49,991 bases of DNA from Rickettsiales bacterium (GTDB lineage Bacteria; Pseudomonadota; Alphaproteobacteria; Rickettsiales; SXRF01): the NCBI GenBank assembly GCA_021299465.1, contig JAJTHB010000023.1, positions 1-49,991 on the forward strand, written 5' to 3'. The translations under genes were made by a program, and so were the position numbers. This document shows, one piece after another, positions 8,715-45,128 of the stretch. How positions within the stretch are numbered: the stretch's first letter is position 1; the number at the start of each line of letters is the position of its first letter. The notes under the pieces are model-generated. The model was not told where the DNA came from. It saw nothing but the letters and a program-made list of their open reading frames with translations, and did no database searches.

Positions 8715-9429
8715 CACGATACTGGTAGTTGGCGCGACATCGTCGATGGCGCAGGCAATTTGCCGTGAGCTGGCGGCGCGTGAATATCAGCTGGTGCTAG
8801 CTGGCCGCGATGAAACTGAGCTGGAGCTGCTTGCCGCTGATGTTCGCACACGCTCAGGGGCATCGTGCAGGCAACTCATTGCTGATCTTAGTGATCCGGA
8901 TTTTTCTGCCGAGCGCCTGATTCTTGAGGCAGGCGATTTTGGTCATGCGCTGATTGCAGTTGGCGATATGGGATCAAGCCTAGCGGATGATTCGGATAAC
9001 CTCGCCTATGTCACGAAGCTTAACTATCTTGCCCCCGCAAGTATCGCAGCCAGTGCCGCTCTCAAGCTTTCGGAAAGTGGCGGCGGCGTGGTGGCAATCG
9101 TCGGTTCCGTGGCAGGTGATCGCGGGCGGCAAAGCAATTACGTCTATGGTAGCGCCAAGGCAGCCCTTGCGAGCTTTGCCTCAGGTCTTAGAAATCGCTA
9201 TGCAAAACTCGGCGTGCATGTGCTCACGATCAAGCCCGGCTTTGTCGATACGCCAATGACATGGGGTATGAAAAGCCCGCTGATTGCCAGCCGCGAATAT
9301 GTTGCGCGCGATATCGTGCAGGCAATGCAGAAGCGTCGTGATATTCTCTATACGCCTTGGTTTTGGCGTTTTATCATGGGTATTATCATGCACATTCCCG
9401 AACGGGTGTTTAAGAAACTGAAACTTTAG
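8689..9429 (+). CDS. dprE2: DprE2-like NAD(P)H-dependent SDR reductase
   Basis: The 246-residue protein is a short-chain dehydrogenase. Paired with DprE1 it would reduce the 2'-keto intermediate to polyprenylphosphoryl-D-arabinose. The nucleotide-binding motif is VVGATSSMAQAI, replacing the usual TGxxxGxG in the way DprE2 proteins do. The catalytic set is visible as the serine of IVGSVAGDRG and YGSAKAAL (Tyr and Lys), followed by IKPGFVDTPM. A hydrophobic C-terminal stretch FWRFIMGIIM is also family-like. Starts at 8674, 8689 and 8701 are all possible; 8689 is preferred as it overlaps the previous gene by a modest amount. The stop overlaps the end of recR on the other strand by 4 bases. Assignment to DprE2 rests mostly on the operon partner. 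Confidence 0.85.
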   Translation: MSTLMQKNDTILVVGATSSMAQAICRELAAREYQLVLAGRDETELELLAADVRTRSGASCRQLIADLSDPDFSAERLILEAGDFGHALIAVGDMGSSLADDSDNLAYVTKLNYLAPASIAASAALKLSESGGGVVAIVGSVAGDRGRQSNYVYGSAKAALASFASGLRNRYAKLGVHVLTIKPGFVDTPMTWGMKSPLIASREYVARDIVQAMQKRRDILYTPWFWRFIMGIIMHIPERVFKKLKL

Positions 9430-10016
9430 AACGGCAATCTTGCCTTGAGCGCTGCGCCCAGTGTCCCGTCATCGAGATAATCGAGTTCACCGCCCATTGG
9501 AATCCCCTGAGCGAGCCGTGAGATAGAAACGCTGCAGCTTTCCAGCCTGCCGGTTAGGTAATGTGCGGTGGTTGCGCCTTCGATGGTGGCGTTGGTGGCG
9601 AGAATAATTTCTTTGACCTGATCGCTTCCAGCGCGGCGAATCAAAGGCTCGATATTAAGCTGCGCCGGACCGCGATCATCCATCGCGGATAAAGTGCCGC
9701 CGAGCACATGGTACTGGCCGCGGTAAAGGTTGCAGCGCTCGATCGCCCATAAATCGGCAAGATCTTCCACTACACAAATCACGCTCTGATCACGGCGTCC
9801 GTCACAGCAAATCGAACAAGGATCCGAAGTATCTAGATTGCCGCAGGTGCTGCAGGGGATCACCTTCTCCATGGTACGCATGAGCGAATCAGCCAGCGGC
9901 GCCATCATTTTTTCCTTATGGCGCACCAGTTGAAGCACTAAACGCCTCGCCGAGCGAGGGCCTAGCCCGGGGAGCTTGGCAAAGAGGCGAATGAGTTCGT
10001 CAAGTTCGTGAGACAT
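9426..10016 (-). CDS. recR: Recombination mediator protein RecR
   Basis: RecR acts with RecF and RecO to load RecA at gaps in damaged DNA. The 196-residue length is standard. The order is a helix-hairpin-helix segment (LPGLGPRSARRL, residues 15-27), a zinc finger with C55, C58, C67 and C70, a Toprim domain starting at ICVVEDLADLWAIE (residues 80-93), and the C-terminal Walker-B-like ISRLAQGIPMGGELDYLD stretch. The gene is the last of the dnaX-ybaB-recR cluster on the minus strand, a conserved arrangement in proteobacteria. A palindromic repeat lies in the gap before it, so it could be expressed differently from ybaB. Confidence 0.97.
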   Translation of the reverse strand: MSHELDELIRLFAKLPGLGPRSARRLVLQLVRHKEKMMAPLADSLMRTMEKVIPCSTCGNLDTSDPCSICCDGRRDQSVICVVEDLADLWAIERCNLYRGQYHVLGGTLSAMDDRGPAQLNIEPLIRRAGSDQVKEIILATNATIEGATTAHYLTGRLESCSVSISRLAQGIPMGGELDYLDDGTLGAALKARLPF

Positions 10017-10020
10017 AGTT

Positions 10021-10094
10021 TAGTGCTTGGTGGCTAGTGCTAGGTGCTTTGTTTATTGCTCAGTTAAGCACTAATCACAAGGCACCAGGCACTA
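10021..10094. repeat. Palindrome made of 7-bp tandem units (ybaB-recR gap)
   Basis: Each arm is 29 bp and consists of one leading base and four heptamers. The left arm begins AGTGCTT GGTGGCT and the right arm, read in reverse complement, begins AGTGCCT GGTGCCT. The arms match at 23 of 29 positions, with a 16-base loop at 10050-10065. It fills nearly the whole gap between ybaB and recR and would be transcribed as a long hairpin in the operon mRNA. The internal repetition means several alternative registers could fold. Two relatives with 8- and 9-bp units occur in the window. Confidence 0.85.
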
Positions 10095-10099
10095 TTTCT

Positions 10100-10420
10100 T
10101 CAAAACGGCAATTTCATTCCCGGCGGCAGGCTGATGCTTTTGCTGAGCTTGTCCATTTCTTCGGTGTAAGTTCCGTCGACCTTTTCTCGCGCATTGCGAT
10201 AGGCAGCGATGATTAAATCCTCTAGCGTTTCTTTGTCTGCTGGCGTGAGCAGGCTGGGATCGATACTGACACGAAGCATGTCGTTCTTGCCGGTGATCGT
10301 CATGCTCACCGCGCCGCCGCCGCTGCTTCCATCAAATGTACTCGCCTCTAAGCGCGACTGCATTTCTGACATACGGCTTTGCATTTCTTGCGCTTGCTTC
10401 ATCATTTTTTGTAGATTCAT
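10100..10420 (-). CDS. ybaB: YbaB/EbfC family nucleoid-associated protein
   Basis: A 106-residue DNA-binding protein of the YbaB/EbfC family, which forms tweezer-like dimers and is linked to nucleoid organisation. The start MNLQKMMKQAQEMQSRM, the glycine-rich GSSGGG segment near residue 33 and the C-terminal LPPGMKLPF are signature features. The length is normal. It lies between dnaX and recR on the same strand, the usual context, with a 12-base gap after dnaX. ATG 10420 is the only sensible start. Confidence 0.95.
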   Translation of the reverse strand: MNLQKMMKQAQEMQSRMSEMQSRLEASTFDGSSGGGAVSMTITGKNDMLRVSIDPSLLTPADKETLEDLIIAAYRNAREKVDGTYTEEMDKLSKSISLPPGMKLPF

Positions 10421-10431
10421 GGGTTGCCTCG

Positions 10432-12024
10432 TTAGTTGGAATGAACTTTGGTGACTGTTGCACCTGGAAATTGCTCGAGCACGCTAGCCACAAGCGGATG
10501 TGTTTGCGCGTCGCTGATTGATTGTTTTTTTCTGGCTTCCTGCTGATCAGCCAGGCTCGCCTCGCCTTCTTCGTTGGATGCACTGAATTTCCAAACCTTG
10601 CCTGTCCAGCGTGAAACCAGATCCCCAAGGCTGGGTAAAAAATCGCGGGGAAATGGCGCTGTTAATTTAAGCACAACCTCGCCTTGAGCGAATGAAATGA
10701 GCCGCGCATCATGCATGAGCTGTGTATGCTTCAGCGGCTCGCGGTTTTTTTCAAACAGCGTCACCAGCTCGGCGAAATTTGCTGGCTGTGGCTGCGCGCT
10801 TGTAACAAGCTCAAGATTTGGTTTGGTGATGGATGCTTTAAGTTCAGCATCTGAATCGTTCTGGATTTTGGTTTCTGGTTTCTGAGCCTTATCCGGCGTT
10901 GGCAATTCCGCAGCATAAGCGATACGCACAAGCAGCATCTCAAGCGCGGCAATCGGGGATGGTGCAACGCGCACCTCTGAAAGCCCCTTGAGCAGCATTT
11001 GCCATAGCCGTGTGATCACCGGCATCGACACCTGATCCGCCAACGACTTTGCTTGCGCGCGGTCTTGCTCAGAAAGCGCGGGGTCTGAAAGTGCCGCCGG
11101 CGCCACTTTAATACGCGTGATGAGATGCACCGTCTCAAGTGCATTTTGTACCATGAGCAAGGGATCAGCACCGGCCTCATATTGCTGGCGGAGCTCACTC
11201 AGGCTTACTTCGATCTGGCCGCGAAGCAGCGTTTCAATCAGCGTGAAGGTTGCGCTGTTATCAGCAGCGCCAAGCATACTGCGAATCATCGCGCCCGTAA
11301 TATGTGGCTTGCCGCCCTCTTCACTGGCCCGCGCAATCGCTTGATCTAGCAGCGAGAGCGAGTCGCGTACCGAGCCCTCAGCGGCAAGAGCAACGAGCGC
11401 CAGCGCATCATCATCAATCTGCACATCTTCTTTCTGGCAAATGCCGGCGAGATGTTTGGAGAGCGCTTCACTATCAACCCGCTTCAGGTCAAAACGCTGG
11501 CAGCGAGAGAGAATGGTCACCGGAATCTTACGCGATTCGGTGGTCGCAAAAATAAATTTCACATGTGGCGGTGGCTCCTCAAGCGTCTTGAGCAACGCGT
11601 TGAAGGCACTGGTCGAAAGCATGTGCACTTCATCAATGATATAAATCTTGTAGCGCGATGAACTGGGCAGGTAGCGAACGCCATCGATCAGCTCGCGGAT
11701 ATCGCCGACGCCGGTATGGCTCGCAGCATCCATCTCCAGCACATCGACATGGCGATCCTCGCCAATCATCGTGCAATGTGCGCACACGCCACAAGGGCTG
11801 ATGGTGGCCCCGCCTTTGCCATCCGCGCCGATACAGTTAAGTGCACGGGCGATGATGCGAGCAGTCGTAGTTTTACCAACACCGCGAATGCCCGTCAGCA
11901 AAAAGGCATGGGCAATGCGTCCGCTCTTAATCGCATTTGATAGCGTGCGCACCAGCACATCCTGACCAATCAGATCATCAAAATTCGTGGGGCGGTATTT
12001 ACGAGCGAGAACGCGATATTCCAT
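10432..12024 (-). CDS. dnaX: DNA polymerase III gamma/tau subunit
   Basis: DnaX is the clamp-loader motor subunit, and its long form also organises the replisome. The 530-residue protein begins MEYRVLARKYRPTNFDDLIGQ. It has Walker A GIRGVGKTTTA (residues 45-55), a zinc module with C64, C78, C81 and C84, Walker B IIDEVH (129-134) and sensor 1 TTESRK. The C-terminal region after residue 370 is a variable linker plus the tau-specific domain. A run of seven A in the linker at codons 425-427 makes a potential slippery site (listed separately). No clear Shine-Dalgarno sequence precedes ATG 12024: a 91-bp palindrome abuts the start codon and may control translation. The gene heads the dnaX-ybaB-recR cluster. 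Confidence 0.96.
   Translation of the reverse strand: MEYRVLARKYRPTNFDDLIGQDVLVRTLSNAIKSGRIAHAFLLTGIRGVGKTTTARIIARALNCIGADGKGGATISPCGVCAHCTMIGEDRHVDVLEMDAASHTGVGDIRELIDGVRYLPSSSRYKIYIIDEVHMLSTSAFNALLKTLEEPPPHVKFIFATTESRKIPVTILSRCQRFDLKRVDSEALSKHLAGICQKEDVQIDDDALALVALAAEGSVRDSLSLLDQAIARASEEGGKPHITGAMIRSMLGAADNSATFTLIETLLRGQIEVSLSELRQQYEAGADPLLMVQNALETVHLITRIKVAPAALSDPALSEQDRAQAKSLADQVSMPVITRLWQMLLKGLSEVRVAPSPIAALEMLLVRIAYAAELPTPDKAQKPETKIQNDSDAELKASITKPNLELVTSAQPQPANFAELVTLFEKNREPLKHTQLMHDARLISFAQGEVVLKLTAPFPRDFLPSLGDLVSRWTGKVWKFSASNEEGEASLADQQEARKKQSISDAQTHPLVASVLEQFPGATVTKVHSN
10744..10750 (-). promoter_or_regulatory. Possible -1 frameshift site (A AAA AAC) in dnaX
   Basis: In the dnaX frame the mRNA reads GAA AAA AAC at codons 425-427, giving the heptamer A AAA AAC in the correct register for a tandem -1 slip. 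After such a slip the new frame runs 11 codons to a TGA, giving a protein of about 438 residues. Escherichia coli dnaX uses A AAA AAG at almost the same codon number to make the gamma subunit. CCGCG and CGCGG segments downstream could pair, though weakly. The AAC version is a poorer slip site in bacteria than AAG, so this remains a prediction. Confidence 0.4.
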
Positions 12025-12115
12025 GAGGTTTCGAAAGTTTCGAAGGTTTCATAAGTTTCGTAGGTTTTAGCATAACCTGCGAAACCTTCGCAACTTACGC
12101 GACTTACGAAACCTC
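12025..12115. repeat. Palindrome made of 9-bp tandem units, abutting dnaX start
   Basis: Two 42-bp arms (12025-12066 and 12074-12115) are separated by 7 bases and match at 32 of 42 positions in inverted orientation. Inside each arm a 9-bp unit recurs about four and a half times, for example AGGTTTCGA then AAGTTTCGA. The last base of one arm touches the dnaX ATG, so the structure occupies the entire leader between the SRP RNA gene and dnaX. It could act as a terminator-like structure after the SRP RNA, a translational control element for dnaX, or both. Confidence 0.85.
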
Positions 12116-12121
12116 TTATGC

Positions 12122-12211
12122 TGACTGGTGGTGACCCGAAGAACATCCCACGACGGCTGCTTCCTTTCGGACCTGACCGGGTTAGCAGGCGACTTCGCCC
12201 ACCACCAGCCT
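12122..12211 (-). ncRNA. ffs: Signal recognition particle RNA (small, 4.5S-type)
   Basis: The minus strand holds the nearly universal SRP loop GTCAGGTCCGAAAGGAAGCA at about 12157-12177, followed by the GGGATG segment of the opposing strand. The ends GGCTGGTGGT and ACCACCAGTC pair to close the long hairpin, giving an RNA of about 90 nucleotides. It binds Ffh to target membrane proteins. A sigma70-type promoter is placed exactly to start transcription at its 5' end. Its position just upstream of dnaX is common in alphaproteobacteria. End positions are accurate to a few bases. Confidence 0.95.
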
Positions 12212-12217
12212 CGCGGG

Positions 12218-18677: not shown

Positions 18678-19868
18678 ATGAAGACCATACCAAAAAAGCA
18701 GGGACTCGCAACAAGGCTTGTGCGCACGGGAAGGCTTACCACGCCTTTCGGCGAAACATCAGAAGCCCTATTTATGAACTCCGCCTATAGCTATGGCTCG
18801 GCGGAAGAAGGCGAAGGCCGTTTTGACGGCAGTATCGATGGCTTCAAATATGGCCGCTATTCCCACCCTAACCTTGCCATGCTGCAGGATAGGCTGGTGG
18901 CGATGGAAGAAGGCGCCGAGGGCTGCATCGCCGTAGCCTCCGGCATGGCGGCGATGTTTGCAGCGCTGATGTGCCACCTGAAAACCGGTGATCACGTGGT
19001 CGCAAACCGTGTGTTGTTTTCTTCGTGTCATTACATCATCACCCAGATTCTTCCACGCTTTGGAATTACTCATTCGCTGGTGGATAGCGCCGATCTTGCG
19101 GGCTGGAAAAAAGTGATCACACCGAAAACCAAACTGGTCTTCATCGAAAGCCCCGCCAACCCAACACTCGAGATTACCGATATTGCCGCGGTTGCCGGCT
19201 TGTGCAAAAAAGCAGGTGCGCTACTGGTGGTCGATAATGTGTTCGCAACACCGCTCTTACAACACCCGCTTATGCTCGGCGCCGATGTGGTGATGTACTC
19301 AACTACCAAACATATCGACGGCCAAGGGCGCACGCTCGGCGGCGCGGTGCTCGGCAAAAAGAAATGGATCGAAGAAACGCTCATGCCGTTTGTGCGCCAT
19401 ACCGGCCCGCATATGAGCCCGTTTAACGCATGGGTGCTGACAAAAGCACTTGAAACCCTGCCGCTGCGGGTGGCGAGACACTGCGAGAATGCCAATAAAA
19501 TTGCGCATACCCTCGAGGGGCATGCCAAGATTGCAAAGCTCATCTACCCCGGCCTTAAAAGCCACCCGCAATTTGCCATCGCTAAAAAACAAATGTCGCA
19601 TGGCGGGCCGATGATCGCGTTTGAGATTAAAGGCGGAAAAAAATCAGCATTTCGTTTTTTGAACGCGCTATCGATTTTTGATATTTCAAATAATCTGGGC
19701 AACAGTAAAAGCCTCGCCACGCATCCGGCTTCAACCACACACGCCAGTCTCGGCGCAGCCGAGCGCAAGAAACTCGGTATCAGCGACGGGCTGATTCGCC
19801 TTTCGATCGGCATTGAAGATGCGGATGATTTGCTAGAAGATATTTTGGCTGCGCTTAAAGCCGCGTAA
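18678..19868 (+). CDS. metZ: O-succinylhomoserine sulfhydrylase
   Basis: MetZ is a PLP enzyme that makes homocysteine from O-succinylhomoserine and sulphide. The 396-residue protein opens with TRLVRTGRLTTPFGETSEALF, a MetZ-type start, and carries the cofactor lysine in YSTTKHIDGQGR. ASGMAAMFAAL, ESPANPTLE and the C-terminal LIRLSIGIEDADDLLEDI motifs are those of the Cys/Met metabolism family. The GETSEAL motif favours MetZ over MetB or MetC, which it could otherwise resemble. It diverges from the MAPEG-que operon across only 22 bases and overlaps the end of trmB by 14 bases. metK two genes away continues the methionine theme. Confidence 0.9.
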   Translation: MKTIPKKQGLATRLVRTGRLTTPFGETSEALFMNSAYSYGSAEEGEGRFDGSIDGFKYGRYSHPNLAMLQDRLVAMEEGAEGCIAVASGMAAMFAALMCHLKTGDHVVANRVLFSSCHYIITQILPRFGITHSLVDSADLAGWKKVITPKTKLVFIESPANPTLEITDIAAVAGLCKKAGALLVVDNVFATPLLQHPLMLGADVVMYSTTKHIDGQGRTLGGAVLGKKKWIEETLMPFVRHTGPHMSPFNAWVLTKALETLPLRVARHCENANKIAHTLEGHAKIAKLIYPGLKSHPQFAIAKKQMSHGGPMIAFEIKGGKKSAFRFLNALSIFDISNNLGNSKSLATHPASTTHASLGAAERKKLGISDGLIRLSIGIEDADDLLEDILAALKAA

Positions 19869-20571
19869 ATGTTAAATAGGTCGGTCTACCTGCAAGCGCC
19901 TTCTGCTCATACCGCGTTGGGGTATAGTCTGGCCATGAGTTTAGCCAGTCATTGCAGCGTCTGGCTATCCATGTAAAAGCTGTGTGCGCAAGCAGGCGCT
20001 CCAGCATCCAGGTGGCATAATCGGCATGGTCGGTGGCAAGGCGCAACTCGGCGCCCGGCTTCATCACCCGCGCAAGGCTGGTTAAAAATTCATGCGAGAT
20101 AATCCGGCGCTTATGGTGGCGCGATTTCGGCCATGGGTCAGGGTAGAGTATATAGACACGCTCAAGCGATGCATCCGGCAATACGCTGATTAACAAGCGC
20201 GCATCATCGCCATAGAGGCGAATATTATTGAGTTTTTTTGTCTCAATGTGTTTAAGCAGTTCGCCGATACCGTTGATGTAAGGCTCGCAGCCGATGATAC
20301 CCACCATGGGGTTTCTTTCCGCTTGATAGGCCAGATGCTCACCGCCGCCAAAGCCAATTTCTAAAAACATGTGGCTAAGTGGTTGAGTGGCTGAGTGGCC
20401 GAAGCTTTCTGACAGTTTACCACCCTGCCAATTTGTCACTTCTTCCAGCGAAAGCTGGAGTTCAGGCAACAGCGTATCCATCAGCGATTGCTTGCCCGCG
20501 CGGAGGCGTCGACCGCGGCGGCGACCGAACGAGGCAAGCAGTCGTGGCTGGCTAGACGTTTCCGGCGGCAA
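19855..20571 (-). CDS. trmB: tRNA (guanine-N7-)-methyltransferase
   Basis: TrmB methylates G46 in the variable loop of tRNAs using SAM. The 238-residue protein has the family start [15 protein letters not shown], the SAM-binding [11 protein letters not shown], the [12 protein letters not shown] motif and the closing TRYEQKAL. Because the conserved start must be included, the best initiator is TTG 20571, inside the end of metK, so the two genes overlap by 20 bases. Residues of about 43-66 (including [11 protein letters not shown]), just before the SAM site, are encoded by a repeated palindrome and are not family-like. The enzyme probably tolerates this because the stretch is variable in the family. 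Confidence 0.92.
20371..20439. repeat. Palindrome of 8-bp tandem units inside trmB
   Basis: The left arm (20371-20402) is four 8-bp units, for example GTGGCTAA, GTGGTTGA, GTGGCTGA and GTGGCCGA. After a 13-base spacer come three degraded units in inverted sense (20416-20439), such as TTTACCAC and TTTGTCAC. It lies in frame in trmB, just before the codons of the SAM-binding motif. It has the same architecture as the 7-bp and 9-bp palindromes near dnaX. Confidence 0.7.
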
Positions 20572-44889: not shown

Positions 44890-45050
44890 GTCACATGGCC
44901 TCCTGGCCATGTGCCGCGAGCGGCAGCTTGCGCTGACAAATTTTGCTTACTGCAAAATTTACGAACCTAAAGAACGGTTCGAGCCCTATCACCTCAAATA
45001 CTTCCTTATAAGAAATTGGAGTATAACTCCAATTTCTTATAAGGAAAAAA
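44890..45050. other. Hairpin-rich insert between the two tRNA 3'-end copies
   Basis: This 161-bp non-coding stretch is a chain of hairpins: CACATGGCC with GGCCATGTG around a TCCT loop; AAATTTTGC with GCAAAATTT; CGAACC with GGTTCG; and a perfect 21-bp hairpin next to the tRNA. Its inner end reads GGTTCGAGCCCTATCACC, which looks like the T-arm and acceptor of a tRNA in the opposite orientation. So the unit is bounded by tRNA-like ends facing outward. It may be a remnant of an integrated element or a small non-autonomous repeat. No protein is encoded. Confidence 0.6.
45002..45046. repeat. Perfect 21-bp hairpin beside tRNA-Pro
   Basis: Two 21-bp arms (45002-45022 and 45026-45046) are exact inverted complements separated by ATA. 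The hairpin lies 5 bases past the tRNA CCA end. On the tRNA strand the T run precedes the hairpin rather than following it, so it is not a standard terminator. It belongs to the hairpin-rich insert. Confidence 0.9.
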
Positions 45051-45051
45051 A

Positions 45052-45128
<77 letters not shown>

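Follow-up and report, generated by a model that had tools for sequence, protein, structure and literature searches.

Bacterial spacers are known to contain tandem 6- to 9-mers, for which there is, to our knowledge, hardly any explanation. REP/BIME and REPIN sequences are dispersed extragenic palindromes without tandem units in their arms, REPINs accompanying a RAYT transposase, and the Rickettsia palindromic elements are alphaproteobacterial palindromic repeats able to sit in genes, typically in-frame in proteins. Vioque is said to have described, in 1997, short tandem repeats (STRR) within the RNase P RNA gene of heterocystous cyanobacteria. Two array types lie closest to the element described here. 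Xanthomonas and Nostoc carry tandem heptamers, GGGAATC and GGGGA(C/T)T, respectively, which are mostly intergenic and are studied as G-quadruplex sequences with one G-rich unit family per organism; in Xanthomonas, 70 cases (Xcc) and 75 cases (Xac) are described in which two neighbouring arrays converge on each other (Rehm et al. 2015, PMC4692102). TAACTGA direct repeats are found in Beggiatoaceae, Cyanobacteria and Bacteroidetes; arrays of the largest class stop 1 nt short of a start codon and mostly lack a ribosome site, the distribution is strain-specific with some relatives' spacers lacking arrays, and the arrays, direct and of period 7 with one inverted pair among 170 sets, are proposed binding sites (MacGregor 2015, PMC4679880).

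The element studied here adjoins dnaX in a 49,991-nt stretch of contig JAJTHB010000023.1 from a Rickettsiales bacterium (assembly GCA_021299465.1, G000 below), which we analysed as a whole and refer to as the window. A reading made from the sequence alone had described a 91-bp palindrome of about four and a half 9-bp units per arm at 12025–12115, and this description was confirmed: 32 of 42 arm positions pair (76% complementary), and TRF gives a period of 9 with 4.7 copies, although an 18-bp period fits the left arm better than a 9-bp one (87% vs 78% matches). The G/T-rich left arm (12025–12066, 42 nt) consists of approximately 4.7 copies of the unit A-N-G-T-T-N-C-G-N, 7 nt separate the arms as a loop (12067–12073), and the C/A-rich right arm (12074–12115, 42 nt) carries inverted copies of the same unit. 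In a scan scoring palindromes with periodic arms the element reaches a composite z of 11.4, the maximum in three Markov copies of the window being 6.06; as RNA it is predicted to fold with −37.5 kcal/mol (z −6.3), and none of 200 shuffles folds as well.

The neighbours of the element are dnaX (10432–12024, minus strand, TIGR02397; top-ranked named match 51% identical among the matches listed), whose ATG at 12024 abuts it, and, directly upstream on the dnaX strand, the small SRP RNA gene ffs (12117–12213, minus; Rfam RF00169, 53.5 bits, gathering threshold 40). The next genes on the same strand are ebfC/ybaB (10100–10420, minus, TIGR00103) and recR (9426–10016, minus, TIGR00615). While the element had been thought to fill the whole dnaX leader, what it fills is a spacer, namely the 92-bp gap between ffs and the dnaX ATG. 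The dnaX ATG does lack a usual ribosome site, as had been remarked, but this is ordinary here: Shine-Dalgarno-like words precede 32 of 136 ORFs of at least 200 aa (13 of 136 after shuffling), a share that may truly be higher, with the first ATG taken as the start. Between 11950 and 12300 we detected neither an intrinsic terminator, which would need a T run after a GC-rich stem, nor a sigma-70-type promoter match; by eye, the 9-bp period would yield pairs of the form TTKCGN-17 bp-TANGTT, a weak likeness to the promoter consensus on which we claim no promoter. Elsewhere in the window, an inverted repeat whose 21-bp arms match perfectly around a loop of 3 nt (45002–45046), perhaps a terminator or a further repeat family, stands beside a tRNA gene (45055–45128, minus).

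The 9-bp element is dispersed. With BLAST, and with a covariance model for which nine copies served as input, we located it at 10 places in the source genome (two further matches, at chance level, were left out) and at 17 in the congener G001; these two genomes alone represented the genus in the search. Among 55 genomes searched at E 0.01 under stricter filters, which lose weak matches, it was matched in these two and in G026, the sole match among the 53 others and a weak one, by eye to another, unrelated palindrome. No match was found in plasmid and phage collections, nor, for two elements of the related genome G014, in plasmids, although the low-complexity filter of BLAST may hide such sequences in both searches. 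In 24 of the 27 copies one end or both lie no more than 10 bp from a start or stop codon, as counted on longest ORFs with alternative starts and with no baseline computed. The copies occupy divergent, operon-internal and convergent contexts and the interior of rnpB, a variety that fits a single regulatory role poorly.

Seven of the ten copies of the source genome have a G001 copy in the same spacer: those at dnaX, C35:9113, C35:5438, C2:27851 and C2:11505, that on C36 beside mutM, and that on C27. Two more (C4:127394 and C8:28937) fall outside the comparison, as do C10:10158, C24:4187, C24:4331, C8:24335, C7:22749 and C107:5371 (near a contig end) of the congener. The spacer between mutM and its divergent neighbour, which we take to be ubiE, measures 96 bp in the source genome, where the element leaves 14, and 90 bp in the congener; the same gene pair in G002, G004, G006, G007 and G008 (G003 was dropped as its mutM start was not found, and the pair is not adjacent in G005 and G009) is separated by 44 to 130 bp with no palindrome at z 5.5. 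At the remaining copy, C35:4475, the congener has a different palindrome in that spacer. It is a look-alike of other palindromic repeats of the GTCATTCCCGCGAA...GGGAATCC type, seen at L009:3398-3512 and L009:873-935, with many matches in G001. On contig C24 of the congener two 9-bp palindromes that look alike by eye stand about 50 bp apart (L230:2678-2770 and 2820-2912), perhaps a recent tandem duplication.

Three copies of the congener have empty sites in the source genome: C6:20329, C46:5916, whose spacer we take from protein sequence to be that of groES-groEL, and one inside rnpB. The G001 rnpB is 482 nt long (Rfam RF00010, 288.5 bits) and carries the 9-bp element in the loop of one helix, taken as P12; the 354-nt rnpB of the source genome is without it, as are the other 17 rnpB sequences aligned, some of which (for example that of G019) have a moderately longer, non-periodic loop at that place. 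These comparisons show insertion to be the route by which the elements reach short spacers and, in one case, a structured RNA. No clear target duplication was visible by eye at C6:20329 and C46:5916, two sites being few. What the sequence-only reading had named as refuting its own proposal was thus not observed: further copies exist in the source genome and in the congener, and at shared positions relatives have empty sites or a different palindrome, not just a conserved leader. The 3' part of the G001 rnpB (L218) contains a second, different hairpin insert of the CCCCTCTCCC...GGGGAGGG type, and in G005 a 7-bp-unit palindrome lies directly downstream of rnpB (L238:11018-11096).

The 7-bp and 8-bp versions claimed for the window are both present. 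The former (10020–10095, z 8.2) fills the ebfC-recR spacer; the latter (20367–20443, z 7.7, 61% paired) sits in frame within trmB (19855–20571, minus, TIGR00091), where the congener has, by eye, another kind of palindrome. The proposal of one class with a varying period was borne out over 439,654 bases from the bacterial family: all 18 hits at z of at least 8 have a period of 7 (nine), 8 (three) or 9 (six), and two shuffles of each stretch gave none. The choice of stretches was not random: the window, four stretches of G001 and those of G014 and G007 were taken for holding elements or dnaX; those of G003, G006, G008 and G009 gave no hit at z of at least 7. At 80 other alphaproteobacterial dnaX loci (843,092 bases) we counted four hits at z of at least 8 against one in two shuffles, and at z of at least 7, 38 of any period against eight when each locus was shuffled twice; where genomes are GC-rich, the scan is therefore less clean. 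The different units of the class may share a common mechanism.

Shared sites make the exchange of units visible. Four of the 12 genomes read at ebfC-recR hold four different palindromes: besides that of the source genome, a 9-bp one in G001 (z 10.2) and 7-bp ones in G007 (z 6.9) and G014 (z 8.9). The spacers without a palindrome measure 130 bp in G013 and about −1 to 23 bp in seven genomes, with starts placed by tblastn (G012 gave no recR and G015 no result). In the ffs-dnaX spacer, G014 and G002 carry 7-bp-unit palindromes. A 15.4-kb contig of G014 (C24, L201) bears seven palindromes of period 7 or 8 with several different units at z of at least 7.5, more densely than the stretches of the source genome.

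The arrays also share a polarity: in 47 of 48 hits from the bacterial family (22 + 26; period 7–9, z of at least 7, one marginal hit, L231:319, included) the G-rich arm comes first and the C-rich arm second, the exception (L200:770) being a short A/T-rich stem that resembles a terminator. These hits are not independent, about half being copies of the one 9-bp family; on our reading they comprise some 15–18 units, a few of them perhaps related. Among the 80 control loci, 15 hits at the same settings divide into 3 left-G and 12 left-C, and those listed at z of at least 7.5 appear for the most part GC-rich and low in complexity; 350 kb of a cyanobacterial (Trichormus) plasmid gave few hits, 3 left-G and 2 left-C at period 7–9 and z of at least 7.2, one palindrome being of this plan. 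The polarity rule is therefore shown for this bacterial family only. The palindrome of this plan (Trichormus variabilis plasmid A, L259:43070-43144) has a 7-bp unit and fills most of a spacer. Given the G-rich-first symmetry, the strand leaving an element is C/A-rich, and in nine cases the outward arm alone is nearly unstructured (−3.6 to 0 kcal/mol, vs −20.6 to −37.3 kcal/mol for full elements).

What has been retained in these arrays can be read from the 9-bp unit. Across 183 units tabulated without filtering, drawn from the outermost 36 nt of every arm (the filter would pass 180, and another table, filtered and with 210 kept, gave the same picture), unit positions 1, 3, 4, 5, 7 and 8 (A, G, T, T, C, G) are 89–99% conserved and positions 2, 6 and 9 vary. 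Across seven orthologous pairs of the two congeners, the six conserved positions mismatch at 33 of 330 sites (10%; 0–25% in each), the three variable ones at 74 of 163 (45%; 33–62% in each), a test that is partly circular as the conserved positions were picked from the same elements. The comparison with fourfold sites is not: in dnaX, ebfC and mutM, 206 of 372 such sites differ (55%), and the unit has thus been kept while neutral sites are near saturation. We detected no coupling of the arms, an element's own arms pairing at 0.742 and swapped arms at 0.739 (p 0.43, n = 27), and no homogenisation by slippage, adjacent units differing more at the variable positions (0.645) than units of other elements (0.594). 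The arrays are therefore seemingly maintained neither by pairwise selection on the stem nor by local slippage; hence, they are kept by their sequence motif or by slow inter-locus conversion. Overall likeness is 0.781 for orthologs vs 0.782 for paralogs in the source genome and 0.747 in the congener. This lack of any greater likeness among orthologs, which slow inter-locus conversion could also give, is what speaks most against vertical inheritance. In its favour, orthologous units of the same index mismatch less at the variable positions (0.447 vs 0.575; six pairs, n = 44).

The reading we prefer, with a probability of roughly one half, is that a short motif stands here in convergent arrays that arose by insertion, have been passed on vertically and are most likely the binding sites of a putative factor. 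On this view the dispersed 9-bp family is non-coding and one of many in the bacterial family, in each of which two convergent tandem arrays are built from a 7-, 8- or 9-bp unit; the insertions, and the sharing in place of most tested copies by both congeners, are shown. Selection would keep the short motif in its repeated convergent order as a binding array for a DNA- or RNA-binding factor at gene starts, and it is such binding that we infer from the arrays; the stem would be a by-product of their inversion rather than a selected feature. A transcript starting inside the element may give the next gene an unstructured leader, because the C/A-rich arm reads outward.

The strongest competing reading, which we consider possible but clearly less probable, takes the elements to be selfish and functionless, miniature sequences (MITE-like or REPIN-like) moved in trans and left in spacers as the sole harmless sites. 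It accounts for insertions with empty sites, for a copy number of 10 vs 17 between congeners, for the two copies that look alike by eye close together on C24 of the congener and for the confinement of the family to this genus among the 55 genomes under the stricter filters. It accounts poorly for shared copies that keep six of nine positions despite nearly saturated fourfold sites, for units that vary between relatives, which makes a single sequence-specific transposase an improbable mover of the whole set, and, as far as two sites can tell, for the lack of a target duplication visible by eye. Two candidate movers were set aside for want of a match where one is needed: the RAYT/Y1 transposase model PF01797 has no match in either congener (98.6% and about 98% complete), which also counts against the selfish reading, and the reverse transcriptase model PF00078 has one match in the source genome and none in the element-bearing G001, G004 and G007, this being one family model applied to incomplete genomes.

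A second competing reading holds that leader RNA hairpins are selected as such, as attenuators, in translation control or as RNase sites, for example in separating ffs from dnaX mRNA. The strong predicted hairpin, its place exactly between ffs and dnaX in both congeners and the extension of one helix in rnpB are what such a role would lead one to expect, and we nevertheless regard it as improbable: the arms show no element-specific pairing, there is no terminator match, and the elements also lie between divergent and between convergent genes. Furthermore, of the 19 leaders read (six remoter genomes are not among them) just 4 have a palindrome within 100 nt of dnaX, and in two of these 4 the units are different ones; on this count a conserved dnaX/ffs leader RNA was rejected as the main reading.

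More improbable still is an origin as minisatellites that arose on the spot, through slippage and through switches of template from one arm to the other. While tandem units in palindromes and the many different units of relatives suit such an origin, the same 9-bp unit stands at 27 dispersed places, adjacent units are less alike than random ones, and the arms are not homogenised within elements. Finally, a coding extension, with the outward strand readable as Arg-Asn-Leu repeats whose variable sites seem synonymous in that frame, is very improbable and was discarded on the unit statistics: a start codon inside the C35:5438 element in that frame and last units in frame with dnaX (both by eye) speak for it, but the third base of AAC, which coding would leave free to change, ranks with the most conserved positions (96–98% C) while its first base changes in about 8–9%, and the frame relative to the next gene differs between loci (by eye).

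The preferred reading of convergent, factor-bound arrays can be extended, tentatively and at odds we would call low, to a general class of bacterial spacer element: site, convergent 7–9 bp arrays and G-rich-first polarity would persist while one genus differs from the next in its unit. Every unit would then be recognised by a binding factor of its own, itself changing fast, and entire sets of spacers, divergent promoters among them, would pass from one motif to another. The 9-bp family is a clean case, in which two congeners offer shared, empty and exchanged sites as well as an insertion into RNase P RNA; with a single polarity across some 15–18 units, and with constraint on the unit that can be measured, the family makes the old question of junk or binding array experimentally decidable.

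How, then, does the family compare with the described systems? With REP/BIME and REPIN-RAYT sequences it shares dispersed extragenic palindromes, and it differs in having tandem units in the arms and no RAYT match here; unlike Rickettsia palindromic elements, it and its relatives lie mostly in spacers, with one 8-bp-unit case inside trmB. The STRR reportedly place short tandem repeats inside rnpB as well, a possible likeness in architecture and insertion, though in a differing lineage.

The sequence-only reading knew of no named family with this combination of features. This holds for the 9-bp variant, of whose palindromic form we found no description in the literature searched; it does not hold for the plan, since inverted pairs of heptamer arrays are described in Xanthomonas (PMC4692102) and, in Beggiatoaceae, heptamers in tandem next to start codons (PMC4679880). 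Like the TAACTGA arrays, the element adjoins a start codon with short tandem units; unlike those 7-bp direct repeats towards the start codon, it has a 9-bp unit and inverted arrays. With the Xanthomonas type it shares two convergent tandem arrays, G-rich first (47 of 48 here, and in Xanthomonas as far as the word 'convergent' implies it), a comparison in which our scan sought palindromes only and single arrays went uncounted. It departs from that type, as there described, in its many units of period 7, 8 and 9 and in copies shared in place between congeners, and the 9-bp consensus A-N-G-T-T-N-C-G-N has no GGG run and is not a 7-bp G-quadruplex unit. The architecture itself thus has precedents, in the inverted GGGAATC pairs of Xanthomonas, the TAACTGA arrays of Beggiatoaceae and the cyanobacterial STRR; what differs here is the 9-bp unit, its palindromic layout, the many units and periods within one bacterial family, the measured constraint and a shared site at which units have been exchanged.
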